From IMG/VR virus record IMGVR_UViG_3300026488_000013, positions 62,001 to 126,000 of that record: a DNA stretch of 64,000 bases, one strand, 5' to 3'. A model generated the notes under the pieces. The model saw only the letters and a list, made by a program, of their open reading frames with translations, was not told the DNA's origin and did no database searches. Every line of letters begins with the position of its first letter. Position 1 is the first letter of the stretch. Source of the stretch: a virus. The position numbers and the translations under genes were made by a program. Of this stretch, positions 1,530-63,760 are shown in pieces.

Positions 1530-3745
1530 GTGTTGATTTTGAATGAATTTATTCTATCTAATAGGTCTTTAAAAATAGCGCCGTTTAAAGATATATGGAA
1601 CCCTATGTTTAAAGTTAATAGCTGAGCTATTAATAGTTTGATTTGATTAATTAGTTTTATTATAGAATTAATTAAATCGACTATAGGTTTTAGCACCTTA
1701 TCCGTTAAGATTTTTAGTAAAATGTCTAAAAAACTTTCATTTGTATTTGGAATAACAATATTAAGCCCATATGAAAATGCGAATTTTTTGCACGGGTCAA
1801 AATCTACACAAGCGCCGCCGAAAAAAGTGGCGTCTTTCGATAATTCACTGAGATTTTTCAGTTCTAATAACGGTATTTGTTCTATTAACCAATCTGGTAG
1901 TCTAATATCCAGACCGAAGTTAAAATCTATGTTCAAAGCGAAGTTAGATAAATCTTCTAATAAGCTACATATCACATTGTTATATTCTACCTCTACTGCC
2001 CCAGATAGGGAATGTGAAATTTCTTTAATCGCATTCTTAGGATTCGATACTAAACTGCTTGCTATAGTTTTAATTCTGCTTTTATATTCTAATATGGAAT
2101 TTTTTTTAATATTTATAGGTTTATTAAAAGCAGCAACAATATCATTACTTAACTTTGCCAACTCGTTTTTAATATTAATTATCTGTTCATCTAAATTTGA
2201 AGACACATGAATACTAATATATTTGTCCAAAATACTCTTACTGGAATCTGCCGCAGTGACAGACAATTGATTTCCCAAATTTTTAAATGACTCCGATATA
2301 ACAGAAAGCTTACTTTCTACAGTAGAATTTAATTGTTTTACACTTTTTAACATAACATTTAAAATATCGTCTAATTTTTTATTATCATCACAAGAAATAA
2401 TTTTTCCTTCAGAAATTTTATCTATTGCTTCTTGAATTTCTTTTACCTCTTTTTCAGCTATTTCGTTTAAATTTTCTAATGCGGCCTTTATGGTCTTTGG
2501 GACAATTATCGATGTGTTAAAAATATAATTAAGTTTTTCCTTAACCAGATTTGATAATTCCTTAGCTTCATTCAACTTATGTTTTACATAATTTTGAATA
2601 TTCGGAACTATCGATTCTATTTTATCCATAGTATCCTTTGATAGAGGTTTTAACACATCACCATTTTCCTCTTCATATTTCAGTATATCTTCCTCGGTTA
2701 AATCCTCAAAATCATTATTTCCAGTTATTTTATAATGAAAATATTTTGCGAATTTAATTAAATCATCCGCCCCATTTTCAGTTAACTTTTCCTGTTTCTC
2801 GTCTGGCAACTGGGATTTCAAATATAGATACTGATTTATCTTATCTTTAAGTTCTTGTGTTAATTCGTTTAATTGGTTATTTATATTCTCTTTCCTCTGA
2901 TTTACAGACTGTTCTAAAGATTCGTAGTTTTCACAATACGTTTGAATTGACAATATCAATTCGTTATCTACTACAGAATTTATATTAATAATAATATCAT
3001 TTTTTATATTTGTTATAGCTTCCGGAGATTGTTCCAATAATGTTTTTATATATTCGTCAATATTGTTATATTCCGAGCCGTCTGTCTCGGAGGTATCTGT
3101 AGTAGGTAATTCTACACTTTGGAGTGCAGTGATTGTTGATTTATATATCTGTTGGTCAATATATGTATCTGGCGCCCATTGAATATTATTTAATATTGCA
3201 TTGAGATTTGGGTTTGTTCCTGCTCCGCCTCCGGATACCGGAGAACCCTGGTGTAGTTGAATAGATTTGGTCGATGTTATTTCAACTTCATCTGTCGCCC
3301 GAATTTTAATTTTTTTACCGGAACTAATTTCAACTCCTTTGTCAGATATTTTAATTCCAGATTCTCCGCCAGAGAATTTTATCTCGATAGAATTATTATT
3401 TTCATCAATTTTTATAGAATGGTTTTTTGGAGTTTGGCATATTATATAAGTCCCTTTGTTTATTACACCTTCTTTTCCAAGTTTAAACACATTGCCTTCA
3501 TATTTTCTATCAATATAACCCGAATTAATATTATCATTCTTAAATTTTATTACAACCCTCTGCCCCTCCAACAAGGGAATATATGTTCCGCTATAACTGT
3601 CTATAATATTTTTTTGCGATGCATCATAAACAACAATAGTATCATCCCCGATTAACTCCGGTATCATTACTTCGACTAAACCGTATTTATCTCCTCCATA
3701 AACTTTTTTTATTACACCTATAAACTCTCTATCTCTTAATCGCAT
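1454..3745 (-). CDS. baseplate spike / hub protein with gpV-type OB fold
   Basis: A 763-residue protein. Residues 1-90 look like the OB-fold domain of phage baseplate assembly protein V (gp5/VgrG-type spikes), including an IPLLEGQRVVIKF-like strand. Residues of about 100-170 are short beta repeats with many Ile, Lys and Gly (for example GIKISDKGVEISSGKKIKI), typical of the intertwined beta-helix of a membrane-piercing spike. From about residue 200 the protein changes to long charged helices with coiled-coil character, which is unusually extended for a spike. A lysozyme domain is not evident. It would sit at the centre of the baseplate and puncture the outer membrane. It overlaps the 224-residue gene. 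Confidence 0.8.
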   Translation of the reverse strand: MRLRDREFIGVIKKVYGGDKYGLVEVMIPELIGDDTIVVYDASQKNIIDSYSGTYIPLLEGQRVVIKFKNDNINSGYIDRKYEGNVFKLGKEGVINKGTYIICQTPKNHSIKIDENNNSIEIKFSGGESGIKISDKGVEISSGKKIKIRATDEVEITSTKSIQLHQGSPVSGGGAGTNPNLNAILNNIQWAPDTYIDQQIYKSTITALQSVELPTTDTSETDGSEYNNIDEYIKTLLEQSPEAITNIKNDIIININSVVDNELILSIQTYCENYESLEQSVNQRKENINNQLNELTQELKDKINQYLYLKSQLPDEKQEKLTENGADDLIKFAKYFHYKITGNNDFEDLTEEDILKYEEENGDVLKPLSKDTMDKIESIVPNIQNYVKHKLNEAKELSNLVKEKLNYIFNTSIIVPKTIKAALENLNEIAEKEVKEIQEAIDKISEGKIISCDDNKKLDDILNVMLKSVKQLNSTVESKLSVISESFKNLGNQLSVTAADSSKSILDKYISIHVSSNLDEQIINIKNELAKLSNDIVAAFNKPINIKKNSILEYKSRIKTIASSLVSNPKNAIKEISHSLSGAVEVEYNNVICSLLEDLSNFALNIDFNFGLDIRLPDWLIEQIPLLELKNLSELSKDATFFGGACVDFDPCKKFAFSYGLNIVIPNTNESFLDILLKILTDKVLKPIVDLINSIIKLINQIKLLIAQLLTLNIGFHISLNGAIFKDLLDRINSFKINTCITTKTINLTKLVSSEIENLPKIL

Positions 3746-3799
3746 AATTATTTTTGGTTAGCTTTCTAAATTGAATGGAAGAAAGAAAAAAATTTAATA

Positions 3800-4837
3800 T
3801 TAAACCAATTTTAGAATTTCTTTTTCCAGAATATCTGTTTTATCCGGAACATTAATTATACCTGAGACCATCGATTGGGGATATTTGGAAAGTATTAATG
3901 ACACTATGAAGTGGAATAAACTATTGAATATAAAATGATAGAAGTTTTTAAATATACTTGAATGGACTTTAACAAATTCGTTAATTGGGATTAGATATAA
4001 ACCCAAATTCTTAAGTAAAATGGGAAGTTGGTTTATATTTTTATATTGGTTTATTCCTATTTGGAGAAGTTCGACCACGACCGATTTCCGTTTTACTTCC
4101 AAAATATCACTTAATTCGGTCAAATATCTGTCCCAGTCTTTAACAACGTAATATTGGTTAGTTAATACACCGGCGATAGACAATTTAATCAAATCATTGT
4201 CATTAGCATTTTTAAAGTTTTTAAACACAGTTTTTATAAACTCCGAATATATTTCTGTTAATTCGGGTATTACATTAAAAGGTGATTCAAAATATTTATA
4301 ATTAGCTATCATTACTTTTAATAATTTTGCACCATATATCGAATAATACAAATCGGGTGCAGAGGATTCTATCTCAGACATTGCAACCGAATATAATTGA
4401 TTTACAAACTTTAATTCTTCTTCCGACAAATCATCGGGCGATTCTATCTTGGATTGTCTGGAGTTAATAATATTAAACAGTTTCGAATATCTCAAATTAT
4501 CAAGAATTACATAGGGATATATCGCATCTATATCCTCACTCGCCGGCATATGGGAGTAATATAATATTCTTAAAGGAAAAATATTTCTGGATACAAACGC
4601 TAAATTTATCTCGGCGGTTTTTAATACATCATTTACTATCTTATTGACATGGGTGGCCGAAACCTTCTTTGAATAAGCATTTATTATATTTAAAAATTCC
4701 TCTTCAAAATTATGACCTAACGATTTTAAAAAATCCGCCCTTATTATTTCTATTAAATGTTTTTTCAAAGCTTCTTGTAAAATCTTATAATCTAATTGAA
4801 CATAATCGAGATTTTTAAATTTTGCCTGCACCGCCAT
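3800..4837 (-). CDS. hypothetical baseplate-region protein
   Basis: A 345-residue, mostly helical protein starting MAVQAKFKNLDYVQ. A good ribosome binding site (CTGGAG, 6 bases from the ATG) supports this start. No domain is recognised. The C-terminal third contains hydrophobic helices (for example NFYHFIFNSLFHFIVSLIL) that could pack in a hub or touch a membrane. It is transcribed with the spike gene, only 54 bases upstream of it, so a baseplate hub or tail-tip role is an inference from context. Confidence 0.7.
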   Translation of the reverse strand: MAVQAKFKNLDYVQLDYKILQEALKKHLIEIIRADFLKSLGHNFEEEFLNIINAYSKKVSATHVNKIVNDVLKTAEINLAFVSRNIFPLRILYYSHMPASEDIDAIYPYVILDNLRYSKLFNIINSRQSKIESPDDLSEEELKFVNQLYSVAMSEIESSAPDLYYSIYGAKLLKVMIANYKYFESPFNVIPELTEIYSEFIKTVFKNFKNANDNDLIKLSIAGVLTNQYYVVKDWDRYLTELSDILEVKRKSVVVELLQIGINQYKNINQLPILLKNLGLYLIPINEFVKVHSSIFKNFYHFIFNSLFHFIVSLILSKYPQSMVSGIINVPDKTDILEKEILKLV

Positions 4838-5098: not shown

Positions 5099-6268
5099 TT
5101 ATTTTCTCTTAAATATATGAATATCCAATCTTATATTCCCGTTTTTAAAATCAGATATAACATCAGGTGAAATTACATTTTTATCCAACCTTAAATGCTT
5201 TTCCAATTTATTGCTGTTAATTTCTTCGATAATAAAGTCGTTATTTAAATTCGAATAAAGATTTGAATTCACTGGAATAAAACATCCATATTTATCAGTA
5301 TTGGATAAACTGTCAACATCTAATGAAAATTTAAGTGTTAGGAATCGTTCATCCTCATTAATAATATTTTCATTAGTAAAATACGTCGAAATAACATAAC
5401 TGGATAAAGAATACTGGGAAGAATAATTTTTGTAAATGTCTATTGGGGTGTATGATGTTGCGGCCGTTGCAAAATATCTGTATTCATTATATGGTGCAAT
5501 TCGCAATGTTATTTTATCAGGATATGATGTTCCTATTACAATTAACTGTATCGGCAATTCTAAAATAACATTAAACGATATTTCAATTTTTGAATACAAT
5601 GAAGATTGCAGAAGGTCTCTTTTTTGAGAATTATCTATGTTATCGGCTACCTGCACCAGCGGCCGCATTTCAAAAGGTGCAAAAACTATATTACTTTTCC
5701 CGGTAATATAATCTGTATTTACATACAAATAATAAATTTCATCATTTTCCAAGTCCCAATCTGGTAAATTATCCTCGAAATTATATAGGGGAATAAACGA
5801 TATTATTTTCGATGTTGGCGACGGAAAATAAAAATATGAACCCGGAGGAAATAAACTTTGCAACACATGCTTTATTTGGACAGCGTTTAGATTTGAATTA
5901 TCAAAAATCCTCATTGTGAAATTAAATTGAAATAGTTGATTTGATGCCAATATGGCCTGATTCTTAGTTTCATTGACACATATATATTGTTCAAACACAT
6001 TATTTCCAAACGGGGCCGCACTTACAATTGGTATTCTATTGAATTGTTCTACTGGGTAAAAGTCGCTTACCTCAAAAAATACTTTCCTCGGAATATTAAT
6101 TTGTTTTTCATCCAATAATTTTTTAATGGTAAATGTATAATCTGAGAATGAATATTCAATTACCGGGAAATAATCGTATCCAAAGAATTTATTGAGACCC
6201 GCACTAAAATTTACAAAAAAATCTTTTAATATCTGGTATATAGGTATAAAAAACCTGCCCGAATCCAT
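5099..6268 (-). CDS. putative baseplate/tail structural protein
   Basis: A 389-residue protein beginning MDSGRFFIPIYQILKDFF. The first 40 residues form an amphipathic helix. The rest is rich in Tyr, Phe, Asn and Ser, with a beta-strand-like pattern typical of virion proteins. No catalytic motif and no recognised family. It lies in the same unit as the spike gene. I infer a baseplate wedge or hub role from composition and position only. Confidence 0.65.
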   Translation of the reverse strand: MDSGRFFIPIYQILKDFFVNFSAGLNKFFGYDYFPVIEYSFSDYTFTIKKLLDEKQINIPRKVFFEVSDFYPVEQFNRIPIVSAAPFGNNVFEQYICVNETKNQAILASNQLFQFNFTMRIFDNSNLNAVQIKHVLQSLFPPGSYFYFPSPTSKIISFIPLYNFEDNLPDWDLENDEIYYLYVNTDYITGKSNIVFAPFEMRPLVQVADNIDNSQKRDLLQSSLYSKIEISFNVILELPIQLIVIGTSYPDKITLRIAPYNEYRYFATAATSYTPIDIYKNYSSQYSLSSYVISTYFTNENIINEDERFLTLKFSLDVDSLSNTDKYGCFIPVNSNLYSNLNNDFIIEEINSNKLEKHLRLDKNVISPDVISDFKNGNIRLDIHIFKRK

Positions 6269-9478: not shown

Positions 9479-9551
9479 AAAGAAAAAATATATTATTTTT
9501 CTAATTTATTTTTTCTTGCTGTTTCATATTATTTACAATCTATGGATATTA

Positions 9552-11657
9552 ATGTATGCTATGGAAGGTATGGAGCGACCCGAAAAAGTGGTTTCATTAG
9601 GTGTGAGAGCCATAGGTTTTTACAATACAACCGATAGTAGCAGGCTCCATATGATAGCCAAATATATGCCATTTCAAGCAGTTCCTTTTGAACATAACGA
9701 AGTGCCTCGCCTCATACCCATCGATTTAATAGATATTGCAAATTATTCCAATACGGGTGAGTTTATATACATCGCAGAAGATGATGGAAAAGTTATCTAT
9801 TCTGACAATGATGTAATATTAATAAAACTTAATTCCAATGTTTACAAAATATTTTATACACCAAAATATAAATATCTGTTCGATACATTTGGAACCAAAT
9901 TAAAAAGAAAACTGAAAACCGGGGATGCATTTAAAAAAGGTGATGTTATTTTCGAATATCATGGATTCGAAAATGGAATACCAACGCCTGGATACAATAT
10001 GAAAATCATGATAGGAACTTTAAATTTTCTAAATTTTGAGGACGCTGTTATAGTATCTGAGAGTTTCGCTAAAAAAGTTGGTTGGTATATGTATAAGGAA
10101 TATATAATTCCTGTTTATGTTCATACTAAAATTAAGAAATTGCCTAAGGCGGGCGAAATATATAAAGAAGGAGATACCATACTTGAAATAGAAGAGAATA
10201 GAATATACTTCCAAGCATATAAGAATGTAGATATGATAAGAACGAAATCTTCTAGAAAAAGCGGCAACAATAAAGGCTTTATTAAAAAACTAAATAAAAC
10301 TATTAATGATTTGATGAAAACATTAGAGGATGAAAAATATGCTATAAAAAAATCCTCAATAGTGATAGAGGATGCAGAAGAGGCAGAAATCTACAAAGTA
10401 GAAGCAATACCTATTAGAGCAGATAAATTGATATTTTGGGATGATGATACTAATAAAATGTTAGAAGAATTATCAAAAGAAACGTATTTAAAAAAATATA
10501 AAGAAGTATTAAAAGGTATCAAAGAAAATCTAGATACTAAACTGTCTGAGGAAAAAATAAATAATAAAATAGTCAAAAAGGTTTTCCATGTTAGTAAACG
10601 AAATCCGATAAACATATTACAAAATAAAGCATATTTAGGGTATATATTGAGAATAATAGTTGTTAGCAAAGTAAGATTTAAACCTGGGGATAAAATATCG
10701 ACGATGGGTGCAAATAAAGGAGTGAGTGCTATAGTTGTCCCGGACGAATTAATGCCAGAGATAAAAGAAACGGGCGAGCCGATAGACATGGTTATATCCC
10801 CAATGGCAACTCCCTCCAGAATGAACATAAATCACATATATGAATTTTGGATAAATAAGCTGTTATTATGGATTGAGAACAAAATTAAATCATATAGAGA
10901 TATGAATTCCGAAGAAATTGATAATGTATTAGAATTATTGATTGAAATAGCTGAAATGTTATACAGGGCTGCCCCTGAAGAAGATAAGGAGTATTTTAAA
11001 ATACAATTAAACGAATTCCTTGAAATAAAGGACAATATAGTGAAAAAAGAAGAGTTCATCAATAAAATAAGAAACGGTGAAAAAATACGATTGTTTATAC
11101 CATCTTTTAAAGAACCTGACGCATTTGATATAGAAGACATTAGAAAATTATTTCTCAAATATAATATTCCCGAACATATGGAATTAGTTTTTAAACCAAA
11201 ACAATTATTTAATCACATAACAAAAAGAGATAATGAATATCTTCCAGATGAACTTATTTTAGAATGTTCAGTATCGGAAATGTATATGTTAAATCTGAAA
11301 CATATATCTAAATTAAAAATGAATGCCAGAGCTACCGGCAAATACTCTAGAACAACCTTACTGCCGCCCAGAGGCAGAAAGAAACATGGCGGTTCCAGAA
11401 TAGGTAATGATGAAGTTGCAATATTATTCTCATACGATTCTATGCCAGTAATAACAGAAATGCTGAAAATAAAAGCAGACGACCATATAAACAAAGTAAG
11501 AATGATACATTATGCGGAGCTAGGGCAATCTTTTAGTATAAAGAATATGAAAGATACGGATACCGTCATAACATCAATATTAGAAAACGCACTTAATACA
11601 CAGGGAATATCTATTGAAAAAATAACTAAGGACAAAAAGTTATTTAAATCCATATAA
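9552..11657 (+). CDS. rpoB: RNA polymerase beta subunit, C-terminal half
   Basis: About 701 residues matching only the C-terminal half of bacterial-type RNAP beta. Landmarks with the ATG at 9552: SSRLHMIAKYMPFQAVPF (29-46, equivalent to DANRALMGxNMQRQAVP), NFEDAVIVSE (161-170), KPGDKISTMGANKG (with both active-centre lysines, K381 and K389), PSRMNINHIYEFW, then GGSRIGNDEVAILFSYDS and ADDHINKVR. The beta N-terminal lobes and rifampicin region are missing. No intein motif is visible at its start. The frame is open upstream to a TTG at 9516, but the first ATG is at 9552. Similarity to cellular beta is easy to see by eye, unlike the highly divergent phiKZ-type subunits. Its partners should be a separate beta N-half and the beta' gene at 51.6-54.1 kb. 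Confidence 0.92.
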   Translation: MYAMEGMERPEKVVSLGVRAIGFYNTTDSSRLHMIAKYMPFQAVPFEHNEVPRLIPIDLIDIANYSNTGEFIYIAEDDGKVIYSDNDVILIKLNSNVYKIFYTPKYKYLFDTFGTKLKRKLKTGDAFKKGDVIFEYHGFENGIPTPGYNMKIMIGTLNFLNFEDAVIVSESFAKKVGWYMYKEYIIPVYVHTKIKKLPKAGEIYKEGDTILEIEENRIYFQAYKNVDMIRTKSSRKSGNNKGFIKKLNKTINDLMKTLEDEKYAIKKSSIVIEDAEEAEIYKVEAIPIRADKLIFWDDDTNKMLEELSKETYLKKYKEVLKGIKENLDTKLSEEKINNKIVKKVFHVSKRNPINILQNKAYLGYILRIIVVSKVRFKPGDKISTMGANKGVSAIVVPDELMPEIKETGEPIDMVISPMATPSRMNINHIYEFWINKLLLWIENKIKSYRDMNSEEIDNVLELLIEIAEMLYRAAPEEDKEYFKIQLNEFLEIKDNIVKKEEFINKIRNGEKIRLFIPSFKEPDAFDIEDIRKLFLKYNIPEHMELVFKPKQLFNHITKRDNEYLPDELILECSVSEMYMLNLKHISKLKMNARATGKYSRTTLLPPRGRKKHGGSRIGNDEVAILFSYDSMPVITEMLKIKADDHINKVRMIHYAELGQSFSIKNMKDTDTVITSILENALNTQGISIEKITKDKKLFKSI

Positions 11658-34946: not shown

Positions 34947-35579
34947 TTAAGAAAGTGTCGGGAGCTCCGGGAATTGAATATTTGTTAACTCAATTGAATT
35001 TAATTCATCGATTGTGGTGGCATTTTCTATTTTTTTCTTTATACTCCGGTATATAGCTTTTACTCTCTGAACAAATTCTATTCTAACTGCGACTTTCAGT
35101 AATTGTTCTATTGCAAATTTAAGGGTAGTATCGTCTTCTGAAATATTTAATGCTGAATAAATATTGTTTAACTCGGTATTGAAATCCGAATTACTATCAT
35201 AGATAGCTAATACGGATTGTGCCAGTAATTGTCTAAACTGTATTTCATCGATATTTTTCATTCTTATATAGTTCTCATAATAATCTTTATCTGCTATATC
35301 ACTTTTCTGTTTGATTGGAGGATAATTTCGTTCAATATATTGAGTTGTAATTCGGTTTAACTGGTTTAACAAATTTTCTTTTAATTTAAGAAATACGCAT
35401 TCATTATCTATTTGGAATGTCTGTTTATCTATGCATTCTATTGGTATATCCTCAGGTATAGGTTTATTTCCTTGCTTGAGCCACTTTTGATATTCTTGAA
35501 AATCTTTATTAGCTGGGTTGTTAGGAATAAAAATCTCATCTGTAAGCCTTATTACACCATTTTGTATTAATTTATACAT
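34947..35579 (-). CDS. tail fibre-associated protein
   Basis: A 210-residue protein. Its N-terminus, with IRLTDEIFIPNNPANKDFQE followed by YQKWLKQGNKP, is the recurrent pattern seen in many phage tail-fibre and fibre-assembly proteins. The C-terminal two thirds are helical. It lies 14 bases downstream of the large fibre gene, which fits an accessory or chaperone-like role. Confidence 0.65.
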   Translation of the reverse strand: MYKLIQNGVIRLTDEIFIPNNPANKDFQEYQKWLKQGNKPIPEDIPIECIDKQTFQIDNECVFLKLKENLLNQLNRITTQYIERNYPPIKQKSDIADKDYYENYIRMKNIDEIQFRQLLAQSVLAIYDSNSDFNTELNNIYSALNISEDDTTLKFAIEQLLKVAVRIEFVQRVKAIYRSIKKKIENATTIDELNSIELTNIQFPELPTLS

Positions 35580-35593
35580 ACACTATTCCTCTT

Positions 35594-37213
35594 TTAAAGT
35601 TCTGCGTCTGCGTAAATATTTATACCATATATGTTACTAGAATCACTCGGATTAAAAATAACGGCATTGGGTGATATTTCGATAGGCATGAACGCATATC
35701 TCGTTATATCTTCTATAATTTTTACAGATGGTGTCACTCTTTTAACAATTTTCCAGTTATGAATTCTTCTATATACGTTGCCATTATCACCACTACTTCT
35801 TACTATTTCGTAATATCTCATGCATCTTAACAATTGAATATCATAGGGAATTCTTTCAAATTCAGTAGCAAACCATCCTTCTTCTAACTGAACTCTATGT
35901 ATCGCAATATAATCTCCCGCCTGCAATCTTACACCGCCAGATACACTAAATTTCTCTCCTAAATACGTTCCTTCATCTGATACTAAATAATCCGCCACAT
36001 CCGTCATTCCAACAATAACTAATTCAAAACCTAAGTTGTTATCGTTATTAACTGCTGAATTGGTGAACTCTAACAAATTGAATGTAACAGATATTCTTTG
36101 AACAGCATTAGGTGTATCGTAGTTAAATATTCTGATTTGAGATTCTACATTATTAGGGTCAGTTTTGTTTATTAGTGCAACACTATATATGCCCGCTCGA
36201 GTTGACATAAAATCAAATGATAGAGTTAACTTAGACTTCTTCTTGAAATAGGGATAAAGATGTCGTCCTTCAAATCTATACACAAACGTTTTTGCAAATT
36301 CAGAACTATAATCTGGTGTTTTCAAAATTTTATATGTAGCGCCTGTTGCATCTTGAGGTTGAGACTCATACATAAGAGTTAGGACTTCTTCGTCGGTTAA
36401 GGCTCGGTTGAAAATGCGGACTTGGTCAATTAATCCTATAAAAAACCATTGCGAATAGCCGATATGTAATTTATTCTTATGGTCTAGTGTTTTATTATAA
36501 CCATTTTGAGAAAAAACTTTTTTGCTATTTTTAAAAATGGTTACAGAATTAGGCCCAATTGAAATAGATAGATGTATCCATTTACCAATCCAATCTTCTA
36601 CTTTTTCCGAGTATACAACTGTGCCATTGGTTCCATATTGAAAATCTACAGAGCCGTCGAAGAAAGAAACTCGAAAAGTTGTGTTTTGCTCACAGTCTCC
36701 TGTAGTAAATAAACCCTGTCTACTATTTGTATTTGACTGGGAATTGTAAAGCCACATAGAAATTGTAAAAACATTGTTGTTAGGTAGAGGTATATTGTTT
36801 ACAATTATTTTGCTATTTCCATCAAACTTCGCAGCTTGCTCAAACATACCTACATCATACTGCTCTGTTCCATACCATGTTCCATTATACTTTCCAGATA
36901 AATCATTTGCATTTCCATCAAAAGTATATGTTGCTATACAAGAACCATCTCCAAATATATCTAAAGTATTCGCTTTAGAACCAAAATTCGGAACAAAACC
37001 TTTTATTAATAATGCATTTTTTGGGTGGTATGAATACCATCTGTCGGCGGTGTATTTTCCTTCAGCGACTATATTATGTATAATGCCCCTTTGCCATATT
37101 TGAAAATCACCATTAATTATCAAATTCTTAAAATTTTTTAAGTTTGATTGTATATATGGGTGGGCATTCAAACCGTTATTATGTTCTTCTGTTAATATCT
37201 TTTTTCTACTCAT
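35594..37213 (-). CDS. tail fibre protein with LamG-like domain
   Basis: A 539-residue protein. Near residue 30 it has NLIINGDFQIWQRGI followed by YTADRW, a motif typical of phage tail-fibre ends. Residues of about 85-285 form a LamG-like domain (IATYTFDGNANDLSG, FTISMWLYNSQSN, VRIFNRALTDEEVLTLMY). The last 250 residues form another beta-sandwich, with AGDYIAIHRVQLEEGWFATE. Ribosome binding site GAGGTAG. The insertion-like island with an omega-RNA-like structure ends about 20 bases upstream of the start codon. Confidence 0.85.
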   Translation of the reverse strand: MSRKKILTEEHNNGLNAHPYIQSNLKNFKNLIINGDFQIWQRGIIHNIVAEGKYTADRWYSYHPKNALLIKGFVPNFGSKANTLDIFGDGSCIATYTFDGNANDLSGKYNGTWYGTEQYDVGMFEQAAKFDGNSKIIVNNIPLPNNNVFTISMWLYNSQSNTNSRQGLFTTGDCEQNTTFRVSFFDGSVDFQYGTNGTVVYSEKVEDWIGKWIHLSISIGPNSVTIFKNSKKVFSQNGYNKTLDHKNKLHIGYSQWFFIGLIDQVRIFNRALTDEEVLTLMYESQPQDATGATYKILKTPDYSSEFAKTFVYRFEGRHLYPYFKKKSKLTLSFDFMSTRAGIYSVALINKTDPNNVESQIRIFNYDTPNAVQRISVTFNLLEFTNSAVNNDNNLGFELVIVGMTDVADYLVSDEGTYLGEKFSVSGGVRLQAGDYIAIHRVQLEEGWFATEFERIPYDIQLLRCMRYYEIVRSSGDNGNVYRRIHNWKIVKRVTPSVKIIEDITRYAFMPIEISPNAVIFNPSDSSNIYGINIYADAEL

Positions 37214-37235
37214 AATATCTACCTCAAAAACGAGA

Positions 37236-37402
37236 ATAATGACTTTCTCCTCTCACTTTAGTGAGGGGCTTCCTGCTTCATCGTGGGCTAAGCCCACTTC
37301 ATGGGTAGGGCAGACTTTAAGGGGTCTGTCATCCCCTTTAAAAAGACTTAAGCTCTGTAGGTTGCGGGGGATGATTTCCCCCGCAGTTATTCCCCTTCAT
37401 AG
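37236..37402 (-). ncRNA. omega-RNA-like structured RNA (IS200/IS605 right-end type)
   Basis: Read on the minus strand, four G+C-rich hairpins follow the peptidase stop codon: 37364-37384 (GCGGGGG/CCCCCGC), 37319-37338 (AAGGGG/CCCCTT), 37283-37297 (GTGGGC/GCCCAC) and 37249-37268 (CCTCAC/GTGAGAGG). The last one sits in GAAGCCCCTCACTAAAGTG, then AGAGGAGAAAGTCAT, the layout of the conserved 3' hairpin of TnpB omega-RNAs (GAAGCCCC...GGGGAG...TCA). The guide would begin just after TCAT, in the leader of the 539-residue fibre gene. The identification rests on my recall of the motif, not on a search. Confidence 0.55.
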
Positions 37403-37410
37403 CTTAAACC

Positions 37411-38439
37411 TCAAACTTCCAAAATATCGGGCTGTTCCATTAACAATTCCTCCAAAGATAACCCTAGTAAAGATGCATATACCTCTAAATCTTCGCCTTT
37501 AATGGAATCTATTAGTTCCAAATAACTCTGAGAAGGAATTAATTTAAATTCCTCTTCTTTTAAATTTTGCTTTTTACCTCTTTTATAGAAGCGTTCAAAT
37601 TTTAACCTTCTTTTGATTTTTTTGGAAATCCACTTTTCTATTGCATACTTATGAATTTTTAAAGGATTCTTTTCAAATACTTCTTCGACAATATAATCAA
37701 CTTCTTCTGGTTTTATATCATTTATGTGTTTGGGTAGGAAATCCTCTATAAGAAAACTGCCGACCTCTTCCTCGTGTTGAGACTCCTTTTTATCTCCTGG
37801 CGTTCTAAAAGCAAAATCTCTATTCAGAATATGTAGCAACTCGTGAAATAAAGTCCAGATTTGTCTCGCTTTGCTTTCTCCACCGTTAATAAAAATGAAA
37901 TTTTTAGTAGCTAAACCGCTAATTGTAGCCCCGTAAAAATAAAATATAAAAATATTTCTTTTTGCTAAAAACTGCTCTAAAGCTTCTAAATTGATGCTAC
38001 TATTTATTTCCAATCTAACTTCGGTTAAAAAAGCTTCAAGTTTGCCTTTCCATAAGTTTTTTAGGAATTCTAATTCAGGTTCTTTTGCAAAATTCTCACT
38101 GAAAGTTTCTTGGATAGCAACAGCTTTTTTGATTAACAAAATATTATTTCTTATAAATTTCCGACTCTGTTTTCCCCGGGGGGCACGGGCACTAAATAAT
38201 TTCTCTTTGAACAAATAAGCTGGAAATTCTACATAACTTTCCAAGGCTTCTAATACTCCCCATTTGTATTTTTCTATTTCTTTTTTTAAGAGTCTAATAT
38301 CTTGTATCTGAAAAACATGTTCTAAAATTTGTTTTTTAGGTATTTTGAGATATTTATCAACATTATTTAGATATTCCCGGCACGTCTCGTAAATTTCATT
38401 GATTTTTGCTTCATAAGATTGCACTGTGAATTTCCCCAT
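37411..38439 (-). CDS. ImmA/IrrE-type (DUF955-like) zinc metallopeptidase
   Basis: A 342-residue protein. The peptidase core has ISGLATKNFIFINGG, then TLFHELLHIL with the HExxH zinc motif. A downstream EEEVGSFLIEDFLP supplies the likely third acidic ligand. ImmA/IrrE peptidases cleave phage or stress repressors. The N-terminal 150 residues are a charged helical domain without an obvious helix-turn-helix. The C-terminal tail ends LGLSLEELLMEQPDILEV. Codon use is less AT-biased than that of its neighbours, suggesting transfer. It lies in the tail-fibre block, out of functional context, with an omega-RNA-like structure directly after the stop codon. Confidence 0.8.
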   Translation of the reverse strand: MGKFTVQSYEAKINEIYETCREYLNNVDKYLKIPKKQILEHVFQIQDIRLLKKEIEKYKWGVLEALESYVEFPAYLFKEKLFSARAPRGKQSRKFIRNNILLIKKAVAIQETFSENFAKEPELEFLKNLWKGKLEAFLTEVRLEINSSINLEALEQFLAKRNIFIFYFYGATISGLATKNFIFINGGESKARQIWTLFHELLHILNRDFAFRTPGDKKESQHEEEVGSFLIEDFLPKHINDIKPEEVDYIVEEVFEKNPLKIHKYAIEKWISKKIKRRLKFERFYKRGKKQNLKEEEFKLIPSQSYLELIDSIKGEDLEVYASLLGLSLEELLMEQPDILEV

Positions 38440-38588
38440 TAATTCTAATGTTTTACTAATACTAGTTTGAATTTCAAGGTTATAGATAAAGTATTGCTAC
38501 AAGTAATATTTGTTTCTTTATGTGATTCTTATTTTTGGAAACCTTTCCTTTAAAATGCCTGTTTTTCAGTTAAAGAAAAAAAGAAAAA

Positions 38589-39383
38589 TTACGGACGGGG
38601 AATTTTATCGAATTCAGATTTTAGCAACGTGGGTATATCCTTATATTGTTCTATCAATTCTTCAACATTGGATACCTTTAATTCATCTACTTGTTTTTCA
38701 AGTTGCTCTTCTACTTCCCAGATTTTGTTTATCCACATTATTAATTGACCTATGAATCCTAAGCGAGGAACTTTAGACAGTATAAAATCTATGGACTCTT
38801 GAGGTATTCCGTAAGATTGTAAAAATTTTTTAATGTCGTTAAGAGTAAGTTCTCCTGCAAAATATTTAGCTGCCGCTCCTTTTACATCTTCTAATGTAAT
38901 AGGAAGTTTAATATCATTTATTTGTTGTAGAGTAGTTATTAATGCATTTGATGCTTCATCGATTTTTCCTGAGATAGAATTTTTCAAAGTCTCCAAATCC
39001 CTGGCCGAATTCACATCATCCTTTAACTCTTGCATTAGATTTCCAAATTGTTTTAAAGCAGTTACAATAATGTCAAAACCTTGTGCAATAGTTCCTGATA
39101 CAGTTGTATATGATAATGCTTTCATAAGTTCATATTTAATTTCAACCTCAATTTTATCGAGTTCGGCTATAAGGTCGGCCAGGTTTTCATTATAATGCTG
39201 CTTAATTGTCTTCTCGATATATTCCTTCTCAGTGTACCAATCCATTGTATCCTTTATGTATTGTTTTACGGTATTAATGTCTCTTAACTCAGGTAATAAC
39301 TTGGTTTTTTTTGTCATAGGGTCATGATAATAAATATTTAAATCTGTATATACATTTTTACCTATTTTGATAAAAACTCTCAT
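38589..39383 (-). CDS. coiled-coil structural protein of fibre block
   Basis: A 264-residue protein with a strong ribosome binding site (AAAGGAGG). After a short beta N-terminus (FIKIGKNVYTDLNIYYHD) it is almost entirely helical with coiled-coil stretches. No family is known. Probably a fibre or baseplate-attached trimeric protein. The last residues (LLKSEFDKIPRP) abut the insertion-like island. Confidence 0.6.
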   Translation of the reverse strand: MRVFIKIGKNVYTDLNIYYHDPMTKKTKLLPELRDINTVKQYIKDTMDWYTEKEYIEKTIKQHYNENLADLIAELDKIEVEIKYELMKALSYTTVSGTIAQGFDIIVTALKQFGNLMQELKDDVNSARDLETLKNSISGKIDEASNALITTLQQINDIKLPITLEDVKGAAAKYFAGELTLNDIKKFLQSYGIPQESIDFILSKVPRLGFIGQLIMWINKIWEVEEQLEKQVDELKVSNVEELIEQYKDIPTLLKSEFDKIPRP

Positions 39384-39399
39384 TATCTACCTCCTTTCC

Positions 39400-40389
39400 T
39401 TAAAGTGTTGCAGATAAAACATTCTTGGCCAGTCCTGTATCACTATCAATAACTATACCAGAAATCACATCTTTTAGTTCTAGGTTATTACCATTATTGT
39501 CAATTATTGATTTAACTCTAGCATCAATTGCTCCAGAAACATGCGAATCTCCTTGGTAAAAGTCAATAATCTTACAATTGGAATTCTCAACCTTTGCATT
39601 CAAATACCATAAATTTATTGCTGCGAAGGCCGTTCCGGCATTCCTACTGCTAACATTAAAAATATTTGAACCTCCTTCGTCAGTCATAACTATCTGACTA
39701 TAATCGGCCGGCCAGCCATTTAGAAAGACACTGCTAACACCCCCATAAAAGTTTATTATTCCTTTATGGTGCCATGCCCAACCTTTATTCGTATCTGTTC
39801 TCTTTGGATTTTCCAATATTATAAATCCTTCTATTGAGTTTGAAGATAACCTTAATGTAGAATCAAATAACAATATACCATATGCATGATTGAGTATACC
39901 AGACTCTACAAACACCTCCGCAGTAATTTTTGCAAATCTATTACTACCATTTGCCTTGAGTGTAATAAATCTATTTCTAACAATTATATCTGATGTTATT
40001 TTATATTCGATAGGATTGTCATAATCATCGGAACCGGCTAATACTATTGTTAAATTACTACCTACCGGCGCTGAATCAAATGCTTTTTTCAACGTTTTAA
40101 ATGGTTCGCTTGCAGTTCCGGGGTTATTATCATCTCCGTTCTCTGCATCAACATATACGGTTTTATTAAACTGACCCAATGCTCCGCCCACAGCATCCCA
40201 CATATCTTTCTTGATTTGTGCTATATTCTTAACATCAACATAAACTAAATTACCGTCTTCATCGATTGTAGGTACTTGAACTACTTGTGGAGTTGGGTCA
40301 AAATAAATCTTCTGGTGGTTGGTTACAAAACCTTTAATTGTATTGTAAGCATTTTTTAAATAATTGTATATATCGTTTATACTTGCCAT
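39400..40389 (-). CDS. beta-helix tailspike-like protein
   Basis: A 329-residue protein. The N-terminal 85 residues form a helix and strand linker. It is followed by KTVYVDAENGDDNNPGTASE, then PFKTLKKAFDSA, the hallmark start of right-handed parallel beta-helix (pectate lyase-like) spikes. The next 200 residues show repeating short strands with Asn and Gly turns. Such proteins bind or cleave surface polysaccharide. Catalytic residues cannot be assigned by eye. Confidence 0.75.
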   Translation of the reverse strand: MASINDIYNYLKNAYNTIKGFVTNHQKIYFDPTPQVVQVPTIDEDGNLVYVDVKNIAQIKKDMWDAVGGALGQFNKTVYVDAENGDDNNPGTASEPFKTLKKAFDSAPVGSNLTIVLAGSDDYDNPIEYKITSDIIVRNRFITLKANGSNRFAKITAEVFVESGILNHAYGILLFDSTLRLSSNSIEGFIILENPKRTDTNKGWAWHHKGIINFYGGVSSVFLNGWPADYSQIVMTDEGGSNIFNVSSRNAGTAFAAINLWYLNAKVENSNCKIIDFYQGDSHVSGAIDARVKSIIDNNGNNLELKDVISGIVIDSDTGLAKNVLSATL

Positions 40390-51642: not shown

Positions 51643-54111
51643 TTACATAAATATCTTATCAAATGCACTTTCAACATATGTATCTTTTGTTTCAGTTAAC
51701 ATATTTCTAAGTGTCCGCTTTGAAGGTTCGTATAGAAATGCCAATATAGGAGATAATCTTTCAGATGCCTTGGGTAAGGGCAACTTCACAAACTTTGACA
51801 AATCTAATTCGTGGAGCTGGACATTATTATTGTGAATAAAGTATCTTAAGGTTCTATTTATATCGTCAACATCTTGCTCCGTTTTTGATTCGTTAACTTC
51901 TGTATCATTATCCAATTCTATATCTTCTTCTTGTTCTATTTCATTTTCTTCTTTCAAGAACCATAACGCACTCAATATAGTTTCAATCATTACAGATTTA
52001 ATAAGTTCTATCCCCAATAAAGTATCTGTTATTTCATCATATGCAGTAAATATATCTTTATCTATCATTTTGGATTTTATTATTTTTTCAATATTAACAA
52101 TTTTTGTAACAATATCGTCGTTTACCAATTTACCATTTCCTTTTACTTTAAATTTTATTATTCCATTTTCACCTATCTTAACGTCTATTAATTCTATTCT
52201 ATAATCATACCCATTCTCCTCTAGGAATTTGTTTACTTCATTTATCAACTGTTGAGGGGTATATTCTTTATTATGGATTTCGATATACCCGTCATCGGTA
52301 TTAAGTTCGATTTTGTATTTTTCTAATATTTCGTTGGGTATCTTGATTATCGCACGGCCGGATGTATGGAATGTGCGTAATATAAGTTGAGTAAACCTTT
52401 CAGTTATATATTGGATTGATAACATTCCCAGCTGTTTTGATTTTATGGATTCGTATCCTCCGCATTTTTTACATACTTTAAATCCAGGAAGTTTGCAGGT
52501 TATAGGGCTTCTTAATAGTATTTCTTTACCAATTATACTTTCGTAGTTATTTTTTGTTATTAAAATCTCTCTATTTAATTCTTCATCCTTGTAATATCTT
52601 CCTATCAAGGATTTGGCATGAACTTCATTTTTTACCTTTATTTTAAAATATTTATCAGTCCCGCAATCTTCCGTATCTTCATCAAACATTATAAATGATA
52701 GATTGTATAAACCTGTCCTTTGGAGAAATCCAGAGCGTGGCGTTTGAACCATTTTGTCAATCTCTCCTTTTCTTGCACCGTGTGCAGACATAAATAATTC
52801 TTTTTTTGTTAAACCTTTATTTAATGGATGTCTTACCGGTTCGGATTGAACTATATTTTTTGCATCCGCAAGAAAACCTTTCGTATATATTGTCTGTTCA
52901 ATTTGGTCTCTGGACGCTCTGGCCCCCGATTGATATATTTTCCAAAGTTCCGTATCTTTCTTTTCCATTTCTTTAAAAACTATTTCGGAATATTTATTTA
53001 AAAGATATAACCCAAATATTGGCTCGTTCGGAATGTTGTTTAATATCTTTTCCACTTCATCTTTGTTGGGGGTTATATAATCGTCCAACGTTAATTTTGG
53101 TGCAATTTTCGAATACGAAAATTCTGATAATACTAACATTATTTCGTGAAACAAATCTAAATATCTCCTACCAAATTTTTCCAAATCTTTATCTTCATAA
53201 AGTTTTTCTTCCTTGTTTAAATATTCGATTATTACTTCGTTCACAATTCTTACCTTTTTCTTATTTATATCAGTTTCCTTTAGATAAAGCTTTTTATTAA
53301 ACACTCTATAATTCAAGTAAACCAACCCATACGGTAATGTTATATTTTGATTTTTTATTCTTACTGCATACTTTCTTACATCCTCTTTAAACAGAATAAT
53401 TGGGTTGGGTTTAAAATCCTCAATCGAATCTATTTCAATTATTTTTTCAATATATTTCGTTGTCGATAACTGATTTAGTGCATATAAATATTCATGGCGT
53501 AATTTGTGTAAAAAATCATCATTTCTGTGGTATCTCAAGAATGTGGTTGCATGAATTCTCTTATTAAATATGTCTTGTTTTGCTTCAACAGTATTTATTG
53601 CATACTGTGCCATTGTGTCCTGCACAACTATATCATTTGCTACAAATGTGAAATTCTTATCCAGTGTCATGTCATATGCTGTTCCTTTTCCAGAATATCT
53701 TATTTCAATATCAGTTATAGGTATCCGTTTTACTTTATTATTTGGTAAAACTTTGATAAAGTATAGGGATTTCTTAATTTGGAAAGGCATATTTAAAATT
53801 TCTACAGGAGATATTTTTTCAAACTCGTCCAGCTCTATATTATAAACAATCAGCGAGTGGTCTCCAGATGCTTTAAATGGTTGAAATCTATTTCGTTTAT
53901 CTTTTATTTCGTAAAGGTCTAAGTTTTCATGGACAGAGAACTCAATTATTTTTGCTCTTTCAATTTTTCCAGTTTCCATATTAAGCGATTTTGTAAACAT
54001 ATCTTTCATAGGTTTATATTTGATTACTTTGACTCCATCGTTTCTTACATATTCATCAATTTTGATAAAAAATTCTTCTAGAAATTCTTTAACACCAACC
54101 ATTTTCTTCAT
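51643..54111 (-). CDS. rpoC: intein C-fragment fused to RNA polymerase beta' C-terminal part
   Basis: The frame opens at a TTG (54135); the first ATG is at 54111. Counting from the TTG (830 residues), 1-173 are intein and 174-830 are RNAP beta'. Extein landmarks: TMAQYAINTVEAKQD right after the junction (following the catalytic NADFDGD in other beta'), bridge helix SGARASRDQIEQ (403-414), trigger loop AHGARKGEIDKMVQTPRSGF (451-470), EDCGT (C491) with C547, C555 and C558 forming the second Zn site, and FTQLILRTFHTSG (581-593). The beta' N-terminal half with the catalytic Asp triad is not in the window. No Shine-Dalgarno sequence is visible. It is the last gene of its block. Confidence 0.92.
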   Translation of the reverse strand: MKKMVGVKEFLEEFFIKIDEYVRNDGVKVIKYKPMKDMFTKSLNMETGKIERAKIIEFSVHENLDLYEIKDKRNRFQPFKASGDHSLIVYNIELDEFEKISPVEILNMPFQIKKSLYFIKVLPNNKVKRIPITDIEIRYSGKGTAYDMTLDKNFTFVANDIVVQDTMAQYAINTVEAKQDIFNKRIHATTFLRYHRNDDFLHKLRHEYLYALNQLSTTKYIEKIIEIDSIEDFKPNPIILFKEDVRKYAVRIKNQNITLPYGLVYLNYRVFNKKLYLKETDINKKKVRIVNEVIIEYLNKEEKLYEDKDLEKFGRRYLDLFHEIMLVLSEFSYSKIAPKLTLDDYITPNKDEVEKILNNIPNEPIFGLYLLNKYSEIVFKEMEKKDTELWKIYQSGARASRDQIEQTIYTKGFLADAKNIVQSEPVRHPLNKGLTKKELFMSAHGARKGEIDKMVQTPRSGFLQRTGLYNLSFIMFDEDTEDCGTDKYFKIKVKNEVHAKSLIGRYYKDEELNREILITKNNYESIIGKEILLRSPITCKLPGFKVCKKCGGYESIKSKQLGMLSIQYITERFTQLILRTFHTSGRAIIKIPNEILEKYKIELNTDDGYIEIHNKEYTPQQLINEVNKFLEENGYDYRIELIDVKIGENGIIKFKVKGNGKLVNDDIVTKIVNIEKIIKSKMIDKDIFTAYDEITDTLLGIELIKSVMIETILSALWFLKEENEIEQEEDIELDNDTEVNESKTEQDVDDINRTLRYFIHNNNVQLHELDLSKFVKLPLPKASERLSPILAFLYEPSKRTLRNMLTETKDTYVESAFDKIFM

Positions 54112-54135
54112 AATTCTATCATATCCATAAATCAA
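53617..54135 (-). other. split intein C-fragment in RNAP beta' (atypical break after block A)
   Basis: Residues 1-173 read as a Hint domain without its first strand: IIEFSVHENLDLYEIKDK, block B-like KASGDHSLIVYN (His93), block F-like GTAYDMTLDKNFTFVAND (151-168), block G-like IVVQD. Block A with the catalytic Cys or Ser at position 1 is absent. An in-frame TGA lies nine codons before the TTG. The last intein residue is Asp173 instead of Asn, preceded by Gln instead of His. The +1 extein residue is Thr174. There is no endonuclease domain. The missing N-fragment would be very short, as in the atypically split TerL inteins of phages. Confidence 0.85.
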
Positions 54136-61912: not shown

Positions 61913-62613
61913 TACTTTAAATTTCTTATTGCATCGATTAATTCTATTACAAAACTCAAATTTCTATAGTATGGAACCTCTAGGATTTTATCTAATTCGC
62001 CATCTTTAATATCATATCCAAATATTTTATTTATTGCTCTTTTTATTATATATTTGGCTATATTGCTGCTTGTTATATCATCCTCATACTCGAATTCATA
62101 TATTATATCTTTATAATTTTCAATTTCATTTACTAGAATATCTTTCAAAATCTCTATAATTCTGTTATAAAATCTTTCATCTATAATTCTCTTCATCAAT
62201 GATTTTATTTTGAAAATTCCCTCGGTATGAGGGGATAATAATATTTTTGTAATATTTGTAGGAATATTTCCGAATTTTCTGTTAAAATACTCTTCAATCA
62301 AATACTCGAACTCTTTTCTAAGATACTCATTTTCAACCCAATTTATGTATTTGAGTTCCACTATAAGCTCCATTATATCTTTTCCATTTTTATCTTCTAT
62401 AATTTCTTTATCAGATATGATATAAATGTTAAAGTCATTGACTATTGGTGTGTCCTTTTCTATATTTATTATTGGCTCTAAATATATAGCATATATCTTT
62501 GTATTATTATCTGTTTTATATTTTTTATCTATTTTTGTCACGATTTTGACGGTTCTAGCCATCATAACCGATATATTTCCGTAGAAATATGAAAAAAAAT
62601 TAATATAAAGCAT
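61903..62613 (-). CDS. possible DNA polymerase C-terminal piece, or hypothetical protein
   Basis: A 236-residue protein overlapping the end of the polymerase palm/fingers gene by 14 bases, in a +1-shifted frame. Early text YFYGNISVMMARTVKIV stands where motif C (YGDTDSxYVxxDKV) would be expected, but the catalytic Asp residues are absent. Later parts show faint resemblance to the T4 polymerase palm and thumb (YLEPIIN, then TSSNIAKYIIKRA compared with MEPMID and TANDIAKY). If it is the polymerase C-terminus, it lacks the second catalytic motif as read. Starts at the MM of VMMARTV are possible. Function uncertain. Confidence 0.5.
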   Translation of the reverse strand: MLYINFFSYFYGNISVMMARTVKIVTKIDKKYKTDNNTKIYAIYLEPIINIEKDTPIVNDFNIYIISDKEIIEDKNGKDIMELIVELKYINWVENEYLRKEFEYLIEEYFNRKFGNIPTNITKILLSPHTEGIFKIKSLMKRIIDERFYNRIIEILKDILVNEIENYKDIIYEFEYEDDITSSNIAKYIIKRAINKIFGYDIKDGELDKILEVPYYRNLSFVIELIDAIRNLKYKM

Positions 62614-63760
62614 TTATTCTCTTCTCCAGGTTTTTGTTTAAATATTTCTGAACACCGGCCTGGGCGAATTTAATCATGAATTTTGAATTCATTGTTATTG
62701 GACTTCCTATATTTTTATCGTTTAGGATAAATGTAGGAACAATATTTACACCATATGATACCGCATTAAGTTGAGGTTTTACAACCTTTCCTTGTAGTTT
62801 ATCATAATATGAATATTTGAAGTTATCCCCTTTCTCATACCAATATGCGGAGGTTTTCTTTAGTTGTTTCCGCAAACTCATATAATCATCTATAAATCCA
62901 ACCATTATACCTACTTGGTTGTCGTGTTTTTCAAATAGTGCCCCACTAAATGTTAGAACATATTTTTTCAAATATTTCTCTATAAATTCATCGATAGTTA
63001 TTTCCCTGATTTTAATCTTATTACTGGTCGGATTATCAACTACTATTACTCTAAACTTTTCCCATTCTTTATCACTTTTTATACCTAAATATAGTTTTAG
63101 GTATTCTTTATATTTTCTAATATTACCCTTCGCTACAATCCAAAAGTATATCAATTTATTTGTTTCATCATCCTTATATGACAAAAGATGTGTATAGTTT
63201 TCTAGAAATGGTATTAATCTGGTTTTTAATACAATGTAATCCTCACCGTTCATTATTCCATCTAAAGTATATTCGGCAAAAACATACATGAGTTCATCCA
63301 ATATTTTTAAAGTGAATTTTAGATTGTTTTCTATAATCTCTTTTTTCTTGTTTGGCTTATACCATTCTACAAACGATAAAATTAGTCGATTAAATGATTC
63401 TTTAAACGAATTTTTAAGATTTAAAATCTTAGATTTTAAGACCGTTTTCTTCTTAGGTTTATCTGTGTTGACAAATTCTTGCACATATTTAGAGAACTTC
63501 CTTAATGCATCGATAAGCTTATACGTTTGGGGAGGATATACTCTGGCCCGAAGAGTAGTGAAGTCTATATTAAACATTTTTACTGTAGAAGGATACATGG
63601 ATGTGTTGTGAACAAGAATATAATAATCAGATTTTGGGTCTTTGGCAAAAAATCTTTCAGTATCTTCTACAGAAATATCATATACATAATCATCCTCAAT
63701 TTCTATAATTTCTATGCTTTCAATTTCGTCAATAAACCAAACTCTTCTTCTTTCTATCAT
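62600..63760 (-). CDS. polB: intein C-fragment fused to family B DNA polymerase palm/fingers
   Basis: A 386-residue protein with its own strong ribosome binding site (AAAGGGGG, 6 bases from ATG), so a separate gene rather than a remnant. Residues 1-52 are intein; from T53 the T4-like family B polymerase continues: TSMYPSTVKMFNIDF (motif A, missing its catalytic Asp), FSGALFEKH (271-279), DDYMSLRKQLKK, and motif B KPQLNAVSYG (328-337). The protein ends 49 residues after motif B, before motif C (DTDS). The N-terminal exonuclease half with the intein N-fragment is outside the window. The active site therefore needs at least three pieces. Confidence 0.9.
   Translation of the reverse strand: MIERRRVWFIDEIESIEIIEIEDDYVYDISVEDTERFFAKDPKSDYYILVHNTSMYPSTVKMFNIDFTTLRARVYPPQTYKLIDALRKFSKYVQEFVNTDKPKKKTVLKSKILNLKNSFKESFNRLILSFVEWYKPNKKKEIIENNLKFTLKILDELMYVFAEYTLDGIMNGEDYIVLKTRLIPFLENYTHLLSYKDDETNKLIYFWIVAKGNIRKYKEYLKLYLGIKSDKEWEKFRVIVVDNPTSNKIKIREITIDEFIEKYLKKYVLTFSGALFEKHDNQVGIMVGFIDDYMSLRKQLKKTSAYWYEKGDNFKYSYYDKLQGKVVKPQLNAVSYGVNIVPTFILNDKNIGSPITMNSKFMIKFAQAGVQKYLNKNLEKRINALY
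63605..63760 (-). other. split intein C-fragment in DNA polymerase (canonical break)
   Basis: 52 residues with block F DYVYDISVEDTERFFA (24-39) and block G YYILVHN (46-52), ending in the standard His-Asn, followed by Thr53 as +1 nucleophile. The size and position of the break match canonical split inteins (C-fragment of about 35-50 residues). The insertion point lies inside motif A, between D-L (T4 DLTSLYPS numbering) and T-S. Confidence 0.92.

Follow-up and report, generated by a model that had tools for sequence, protein, structure and literature searches.

Introduction

Split inteins, fractured phage genes and inteins in RNA polymerases are all already known. Genes broken within a split intein and accompanied by free-standing homing endonucleases have been described (Dassa et al. 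2009, as far as it is cited in PMC6892783). Inteins that begin with serine (Ser1) have a signature histidine in motif NX that is always preceded by Arg or Lys, the PI-TkoII and TFIIB inteins being examples (PMC10189870). A C-terminal Gln or Asp is an accepted variant with the same mechanism, Asp taking over the cyclisation (Amitai et al. 2004, as cited in PMC4031507). The inteins of eukaryotic and viral RNA polymerases occupy highly conserved sites near the active site (PMC1635734), and in crAss-like phages RNA polymerase genes are broken inside the DxDxD motif, for which unknown expression mechanisms have been suggested (PMC7886860). Here we describe a 64,000-nucleotide stretch (the window, G000:C1:62001-126000) of the IMG/VR record IMGVR_UViG_3300026488_000013 (G000, 167,050 bp), the flanks of which were also read. 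The virus is described as a large bacterial virus, and the β′ subunit of one of its RNA polymerases is spread over two genes ~74 kb apart. To judge from sequence and structure prediction, a naturally split intein at the β′ catalytic triad, which would splice the subunit in trans, is the most likely explanation.

Results

The window contains the open reading frame (ORF) that an earlier note on this DNA had placed at 51643–54135 on the minus strand (the C-gene), and both of its parts are what that note had taken them for. The last ~650 residues match β′ (PF04998, E=4.5e-15; TIGR02386 rpoC, E=8e-25). Ahead of them, ORF residues 48–176 match the Pfam model Intein_splicing (PF14890) over model positions 18–153 of 155 with E=1.8e-4 (2.4e-7 in a genome-scale search), a match that is under the curated cut-off yet spans the full C-part. 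The stretch also matches an intein-containing PolII model (1.4e-6). AlphaFold2 predicted a Hint fold for the 165-residue C-fragment (pLDDT 92, pTM 0.81), and the best structural match of this model in the PDB is Aes123 PolB1, a cysteine-less split intein with Ser1 (E=1.8e-8). There were 35 PDB matches at E≤0.001, and those listed are inteins and intein-like domains. Profile, structure and family alignment agree on the Hint family, and the profile-search failure that the note had named as a possible refutation did not occur. On inspection the stretch indeed lacks block A, and it ends in ...YDMTLDKNFTFVANDIVVQD, with TMAQ directly after. Of the class 1 intein features, the block B histidine (H85), the block F aspartate (D147) and Thr+1 are present, while the terminal Asn and penultimate His are replaced by Asp and Gln, as the note had read them.

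The N-gene was sought by a six-frame search of the window flanks. They contain a single NADYDGD, which lies ~74 kb from the C-gene, likewise on the minus strand, in an ORF of 648 residues (Table 1). The note had predicted an ORF ending in the triad motif, a Cys or Ser and a short intein piece, and this ORF on the same contig has that form: FNADYDGD is followed by SVSQARVIIEFADMSSIILHLNPH, which is Ser and 23 further residues, and then a stop. The insertion site had been given as NADFDGD; the triad site is the same, but the extein motif of this phage has Tyr in place of Phe. The product matches β′ N-terminal domains (PF00623, 1.3e-12; TIGR02386, 4.8e-13), and TIGR02386 is found in both halves, with the DxDGD triad in the N-half. 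The two exteins are exactly complementary and join at NADYDGD/T (slashes mark junctions), as expected of a naturally split intein whose fragments lie in separate genes of one genome. A contiguous β′ gene elsewhere had been named as evidence against a split; no uninterrupted β′ was found, because the second, different β′ of this phage is itself interrupted (L001:7330-9348, 5889-6101, 3214-4467).

Table 1. Features of the split β′ system. Coordinates are those of the window unless a record or locus is named.
Feature	Position	Strand	Basis or remark
C-gene	G000 113643-116111	(-)	Most likely start at ATG, window 54111
Phage promoter core TATGGATAT	54121..54129	(-)	9 nt before ATG 54111; overlaps codons following the proposed TTG
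Intein C-fragment, 165 residues from ATG 54111, end ...VANDIVVQD	53617..54111	(-)	Pfam/NCBIfam matches, AlphaFold2, PDB matches, alignment with RpoC-site inteins
Candidate motif-NX histidine, residue 61 (SVH)	53929..53931	(-)	Invariant in family alignment; aligned with His of 2cw7 and 5o9i
Block B (N3) histidine H85, S-G-D-H	53857..53859	(-)	Invariant in alignment A1
Block F (C2) aspartate D147, Y-D-M-T	53671..53673	(-)	Invariant in alignment A1
Intein C-terminal Asp, Gln before, Thr+1 after	53617..53619	(-)	Asp in every complete relative at the site
C-extein: β′ from TMAQ to C-terminus, including trigger-loop region and DCGTD	51643..53616	(-)	PF04998, TIGR02386
N-gene (outside window)	G000 37465-39411 = L002:17965-19911	(-)	PF00623, TIGR02386
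24-residue N-tail SVSQARVIIEFADMSSIILHLNPH after NADYDGD	L002:17968-18039	(-)	Reading of the N-gene
Homing-endonuclease-like gene directly behind N-gene	G000 35326-37341 = L002:15826-17841	(-)	PHROG 559/3339

The motif TANRGATAW stands 6–10 nt before the start, usually exactly 9, in 22 of 156 ORFs, against a background of 46 in 5,601 for all ATGs (0.8%). Its commonest forms, TATGGATAAT and TACGGATAAT, lie 9 nt ahead of the ATG in ~20 genes across the contig, mostly without Shine-Dalgarno sites, which suggests short-leader or leaderless mRNAs. The N-gene (start G000 39411), the C-gene and the endonuclease gene that follows the N-gene all have a promoter of this type with a gap of 9, so both halves are probably expressed as members of a single group. 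A TTG start proposed for the C-gene was rejected, as the promoter core overlaps it and sits at the customary distance from the ATG at 54111. This ATG, 24 nt inside the proposed TTG, is most likely the true start, the codons after the TTG being promoter, and the intein stretch, given as 173 residues in the note, is real but 165 residues long.

Viral contigs were scanned for FNAD[FY]DGD with S, T or C next, and this revealed contiguous inteins at exactly the same site in phage rpoC genes (L014, L183, L187/L213, L192, L198, L214, L216 and L222, plus partial ones). They begin with Ser1 (Cys1 in L192) and have a block B of the form S-x-D/N-H-S-L; the last residue of every complete one is Asp (VWD, VYD or VQD), and the residue after it is Thr+1, except in L216 and L222, which have Cys+1. 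The terminal Asp, which the note had called known but rare, is thus a trait of the family and not a peculiarity of the present copy. A second scan added L246, L264 and L295; it required VWD/TMA and so cannot test the terminal Asp. Four features do not vary across the family alignment (A1): the histidines of motif NX and of block B, the Tyr-Asp of block F, and the Asp at the end. When the PDB is searched with the alignment profile, PI-PkoII (2cw7) and the TFIIB intein (5o9i) come up, and their NX histidines align with that of the family. A tree of 13 inteins over ~110 columns supports only the pairing of the present intein with that of G001, described below (ultrafast bootstrap, UFBoot, 90), the deeper branches, among them those that bear on the independence of the two splits with short N-fragments, being poorly resolved. 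Gene structure, family, predicted fold, conserved residues and common promoter are established for the proposed split intein.

Whole-protein queries against viral contigs returned no relative, whereas conserved-motif DNA patterns did. A tblastn search of isolate phages gave only remote β′ matches, and among the matches listed for the junction pattern VQDTMA in genome contigs, none of the loci examined was a true rpoC case.

Three distinct Cys1 inteins (L246, L264 and L320/L328) lie at the same rpoC site behind DGN (DGN/C), with Asn for the third catalytic Asp. They end in Asp before Thr+1 and seem to be without the block B His (TNES). Cut at the normal boundaries, they would leave a mature enzyme without the third catalytic Asp; one viral scan, with six contigs, gave no intein-free rpoC with NAD[FY]DGN.

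Several observations weigh against trans-splicing of β′. The note had placed the break just after block A, leaving a very short N-fragment; a 24-residue tail with Ser1 is present, but no block A can be recognised in it. On the family block A profile the tail scores -5.4, lower than all members (-0.9 to 13.5, leave-one-out), and cannot be told from random sequence beginning with Ser (p=0.49). Nor is it supported as a continuation of the extein (p 0.05–0.28), and BLAST gave no convincing match to it. The residue before the NX His is Val and not the Arg or Lys of Ser1 inteins, a position that varies within the family. With Gln-Asp at its end, the intein would be expected to carry out the final cleavage more slowly, and the searches gave no close relative for testing selection on the two halves. 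The putative role of the tail as the N-fragment rests on its position, its Ser1 and its intact partner; block A has either diverged past recognition, been replaced at the gene break, or the tail is dead.

A dead tail would mean that the N-half decayed after the split and that splicing was lost, with β′ working as two polypeptides, possibly after C-terminal cleavage at Asp/Thr alone. The tail, without a recognisable block A, would fit such decay, and other large phages use divided β′ subunits without inteins. In a further genome (G008) the β′ gene starts just upstream of NADFDGD and has no intein, so the gene tolerates being broken in this region. We nevertheless consider decay unlikely. A dead intein would not be expected to keep a C-fragment as intact as this one, in which no catalytic residue is missing and a Hint fold is confidently predicted; this argues against a dead tail. 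An unspliced Hint domain and tail would occupy the catalytic loop (DxDGD), where the domain should obstruct the active site. The same promoter type has also been kept on both genes.

Block A could instead be supplied, or the halves joined, at the level of RNA by a group I intron, a frameshift or a trans-spliced RNA, and the paralogous β′ gene of this phage does have an intron-like interruption in the same motif. We regard this as very improbable, given that Rfam finds no group I intron or other RNA around the N-gene end, that the alternative frames after NADYDGD have no block A by eye, and that the C-gene, 74 kb distant, comes with a separate promoter and start.

Two unrelated contigs contain split versions of the same intein. 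In IMGVR_UViG_3300037468_000575 (G001) the N-gene stops after block B, giving an N-fragment of 132 residues, and the C-gene junction reads ...GVFVQD/TMAIFHP; a 356-residue homing-endonuclease-like gene lies between the halves (PHROG 3339, 5e-13; HNH-like C-terminus by eye). In IMGVR_UViG_3300042923_000307 (G002) the N-gene ends NADFDGD/SVAGDTYVIVQDTDGTVRLVKIKDVE and a stop (26 residues with a clear block A), directly followed by a terminator-like hairpin (-16.6 kcal/mol, z -3.5). Its C-gene, with the junction ...NILVYD/TMQVHVP, is >24 kb away on the opposite strand. Since the break points differ between sister inteins, the breaks were probably not one inherited event. A free-standing homing-endonuclease-like gene accompanies the break both in G001 and, behind the N-gene, in the present phage. 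An assembly or binning artefact, in which an intact intein-containing β′ gene was broken or made chimeric, would also separate the halves. They come from a single metagenomic contig, no near relative was available for checking the junctions, and the N-tail matches nothing; yet both halves are clean ORFs whose own promoters keep the exact family spacing. With split versions on the two other contigs, one of them with a hairpin at the N-gene stop, an artefact is hardly plausible.

Under trans-splicing, we infer the association of the fragments, every chemical step and the dependence of the RNA polymerase on splicing as follows. A class-1-like intein would separate the third catalytic Asp of NADYDGD from the Thr that follows. 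The N-gene would yield β′ up to NADYDGD with a short N-fragment from Ser1, and the C-gene the 165-residue C-fragment with the rest of β′. After translation the two precursors would associate and form the Hint domain. Ser1 would form an ester with the N-extein, which Thr+1 would then take over, and the terminal Asp, in place of Asn, would cyclise or be cleaved otherwise. An acyl shift would finally give a seamless NADYDGD-TMAQ active-site loop.

Other polymerase genes of the phage are also interrupted. The second β′ (L001:5889-9348, minus strand) has a mini-intein-like insert inside the triad (GAD/CNWD...YVKKQ/CDG), followed by a GC-rich, group I intron-like stretch with a AGATATAGTCC element, on which Rfam makes no call, and then by the exon DQINIYAVHTP. 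Beside a piece of this gene lies a free-standing homing-endonuclease-like gene (L001:1061-3148, minus strand) related to the one behind the N-gene. PHROG matches identify two different RNA polymerase β-type proteins (window 9516-11657, plus strand; L006:2030-6838, minus strand), which makes it probable that this phage, like some jumbo phages, has genes for two multisubunit RNA polymerases. A second split intein lies at motif A of DNA polymerase B (window 62600-63760 with L005:3878-5404 = G000 129378-130904, both minus strand). Its N-part (...MDFDQ/SLTYDQLIL...; TIGR01445) and C-part (...YYILVHN/TSMYPS; TIGR01443) both score above cut-off, and it has the conventional break after block B and a His-Asn end. 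An apparent third piece of DNA polymerase B (L005:7063-9585, minus strand; YSDTDS region by eye) stands behind a fused uracil-DNA glycosylase domain (PF03167, 4.6e-17).

Discussion

Taken together, these observations allow a broader, tentative proposal. Phage RNA polymerases may carry a distinct class of intein at the catalytic triad, with Ser1, Thr+1 and an obligatory terminal Asp. This class would have split into separate genes on more than one occasion, so that these phages' own RNA polymerase would be built only by trans-splicing. The N-half here, Ser1 and a tail replacing block A, would be among the most minimal N-fragments known, and the coupling of distant genes may control the timing of polymerase activity.

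If trans-splicing is correct, a phage transcription machinery depends on the joining of two proteins, encoded 74 kb apart, at the residues that bind the catalytic magnesium. Some, at least, of the phage RNA polymerase genes seemingly broken inside DxDxD, such as those of PMC7886860, would then have a concrete and testable explanation. A family with an invariant terminal Asp would allow the cleavage step to be studied without Asn; it would also be a source of new Ser1 split inteins whose N-fragments are short enough for synthesis. In the literature searched (open-licence papers), we found no split intein in a phage multisubunit RNA polymerase, in agreement with the earlier note, no fractured-gene split intein in rpoC, and no whole intein family with a terminal Asp.

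The closest described systems are the cysteine-less split inteins PolB16 OarG and Aes123 PolB1 (PMC10189870, PMC11923092), which have Ser1 and the position of the NX His in common with the present intein. PolB16 likewise has a very short N-fragment, of 15 residues, with a C-fragment of 168. The present intein differs from both in its host protein, β′ and not PolB, in its Gln-Asp rather than His-Asn end, in Thr+1, in the absence of Arg or Lys before the NX His, and in an N-fragment without a clear block A. In the systems of Dassa et al. 2009, as far as PMC6892783 cites them, the break likewise falls within the intein and an endonuclease gene lies next to the halves or separates them, whereas here the halves are 74 kb apart and the host gene is rpoC. 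Unlike the inteins of Amitai et al. 2004, as cited in PMC4031507, the present one belongs to an entire family that has the terminal Asp at a single insertion site, preceded by Trp, Tyr or Gln. Finally, the RNA polymerase inteins discussed in PMC1635734 share with it a highly conserved location close to the active site but are in the second-largest subunit, whereas the present one is in β′, at the catalytic triad, and split.
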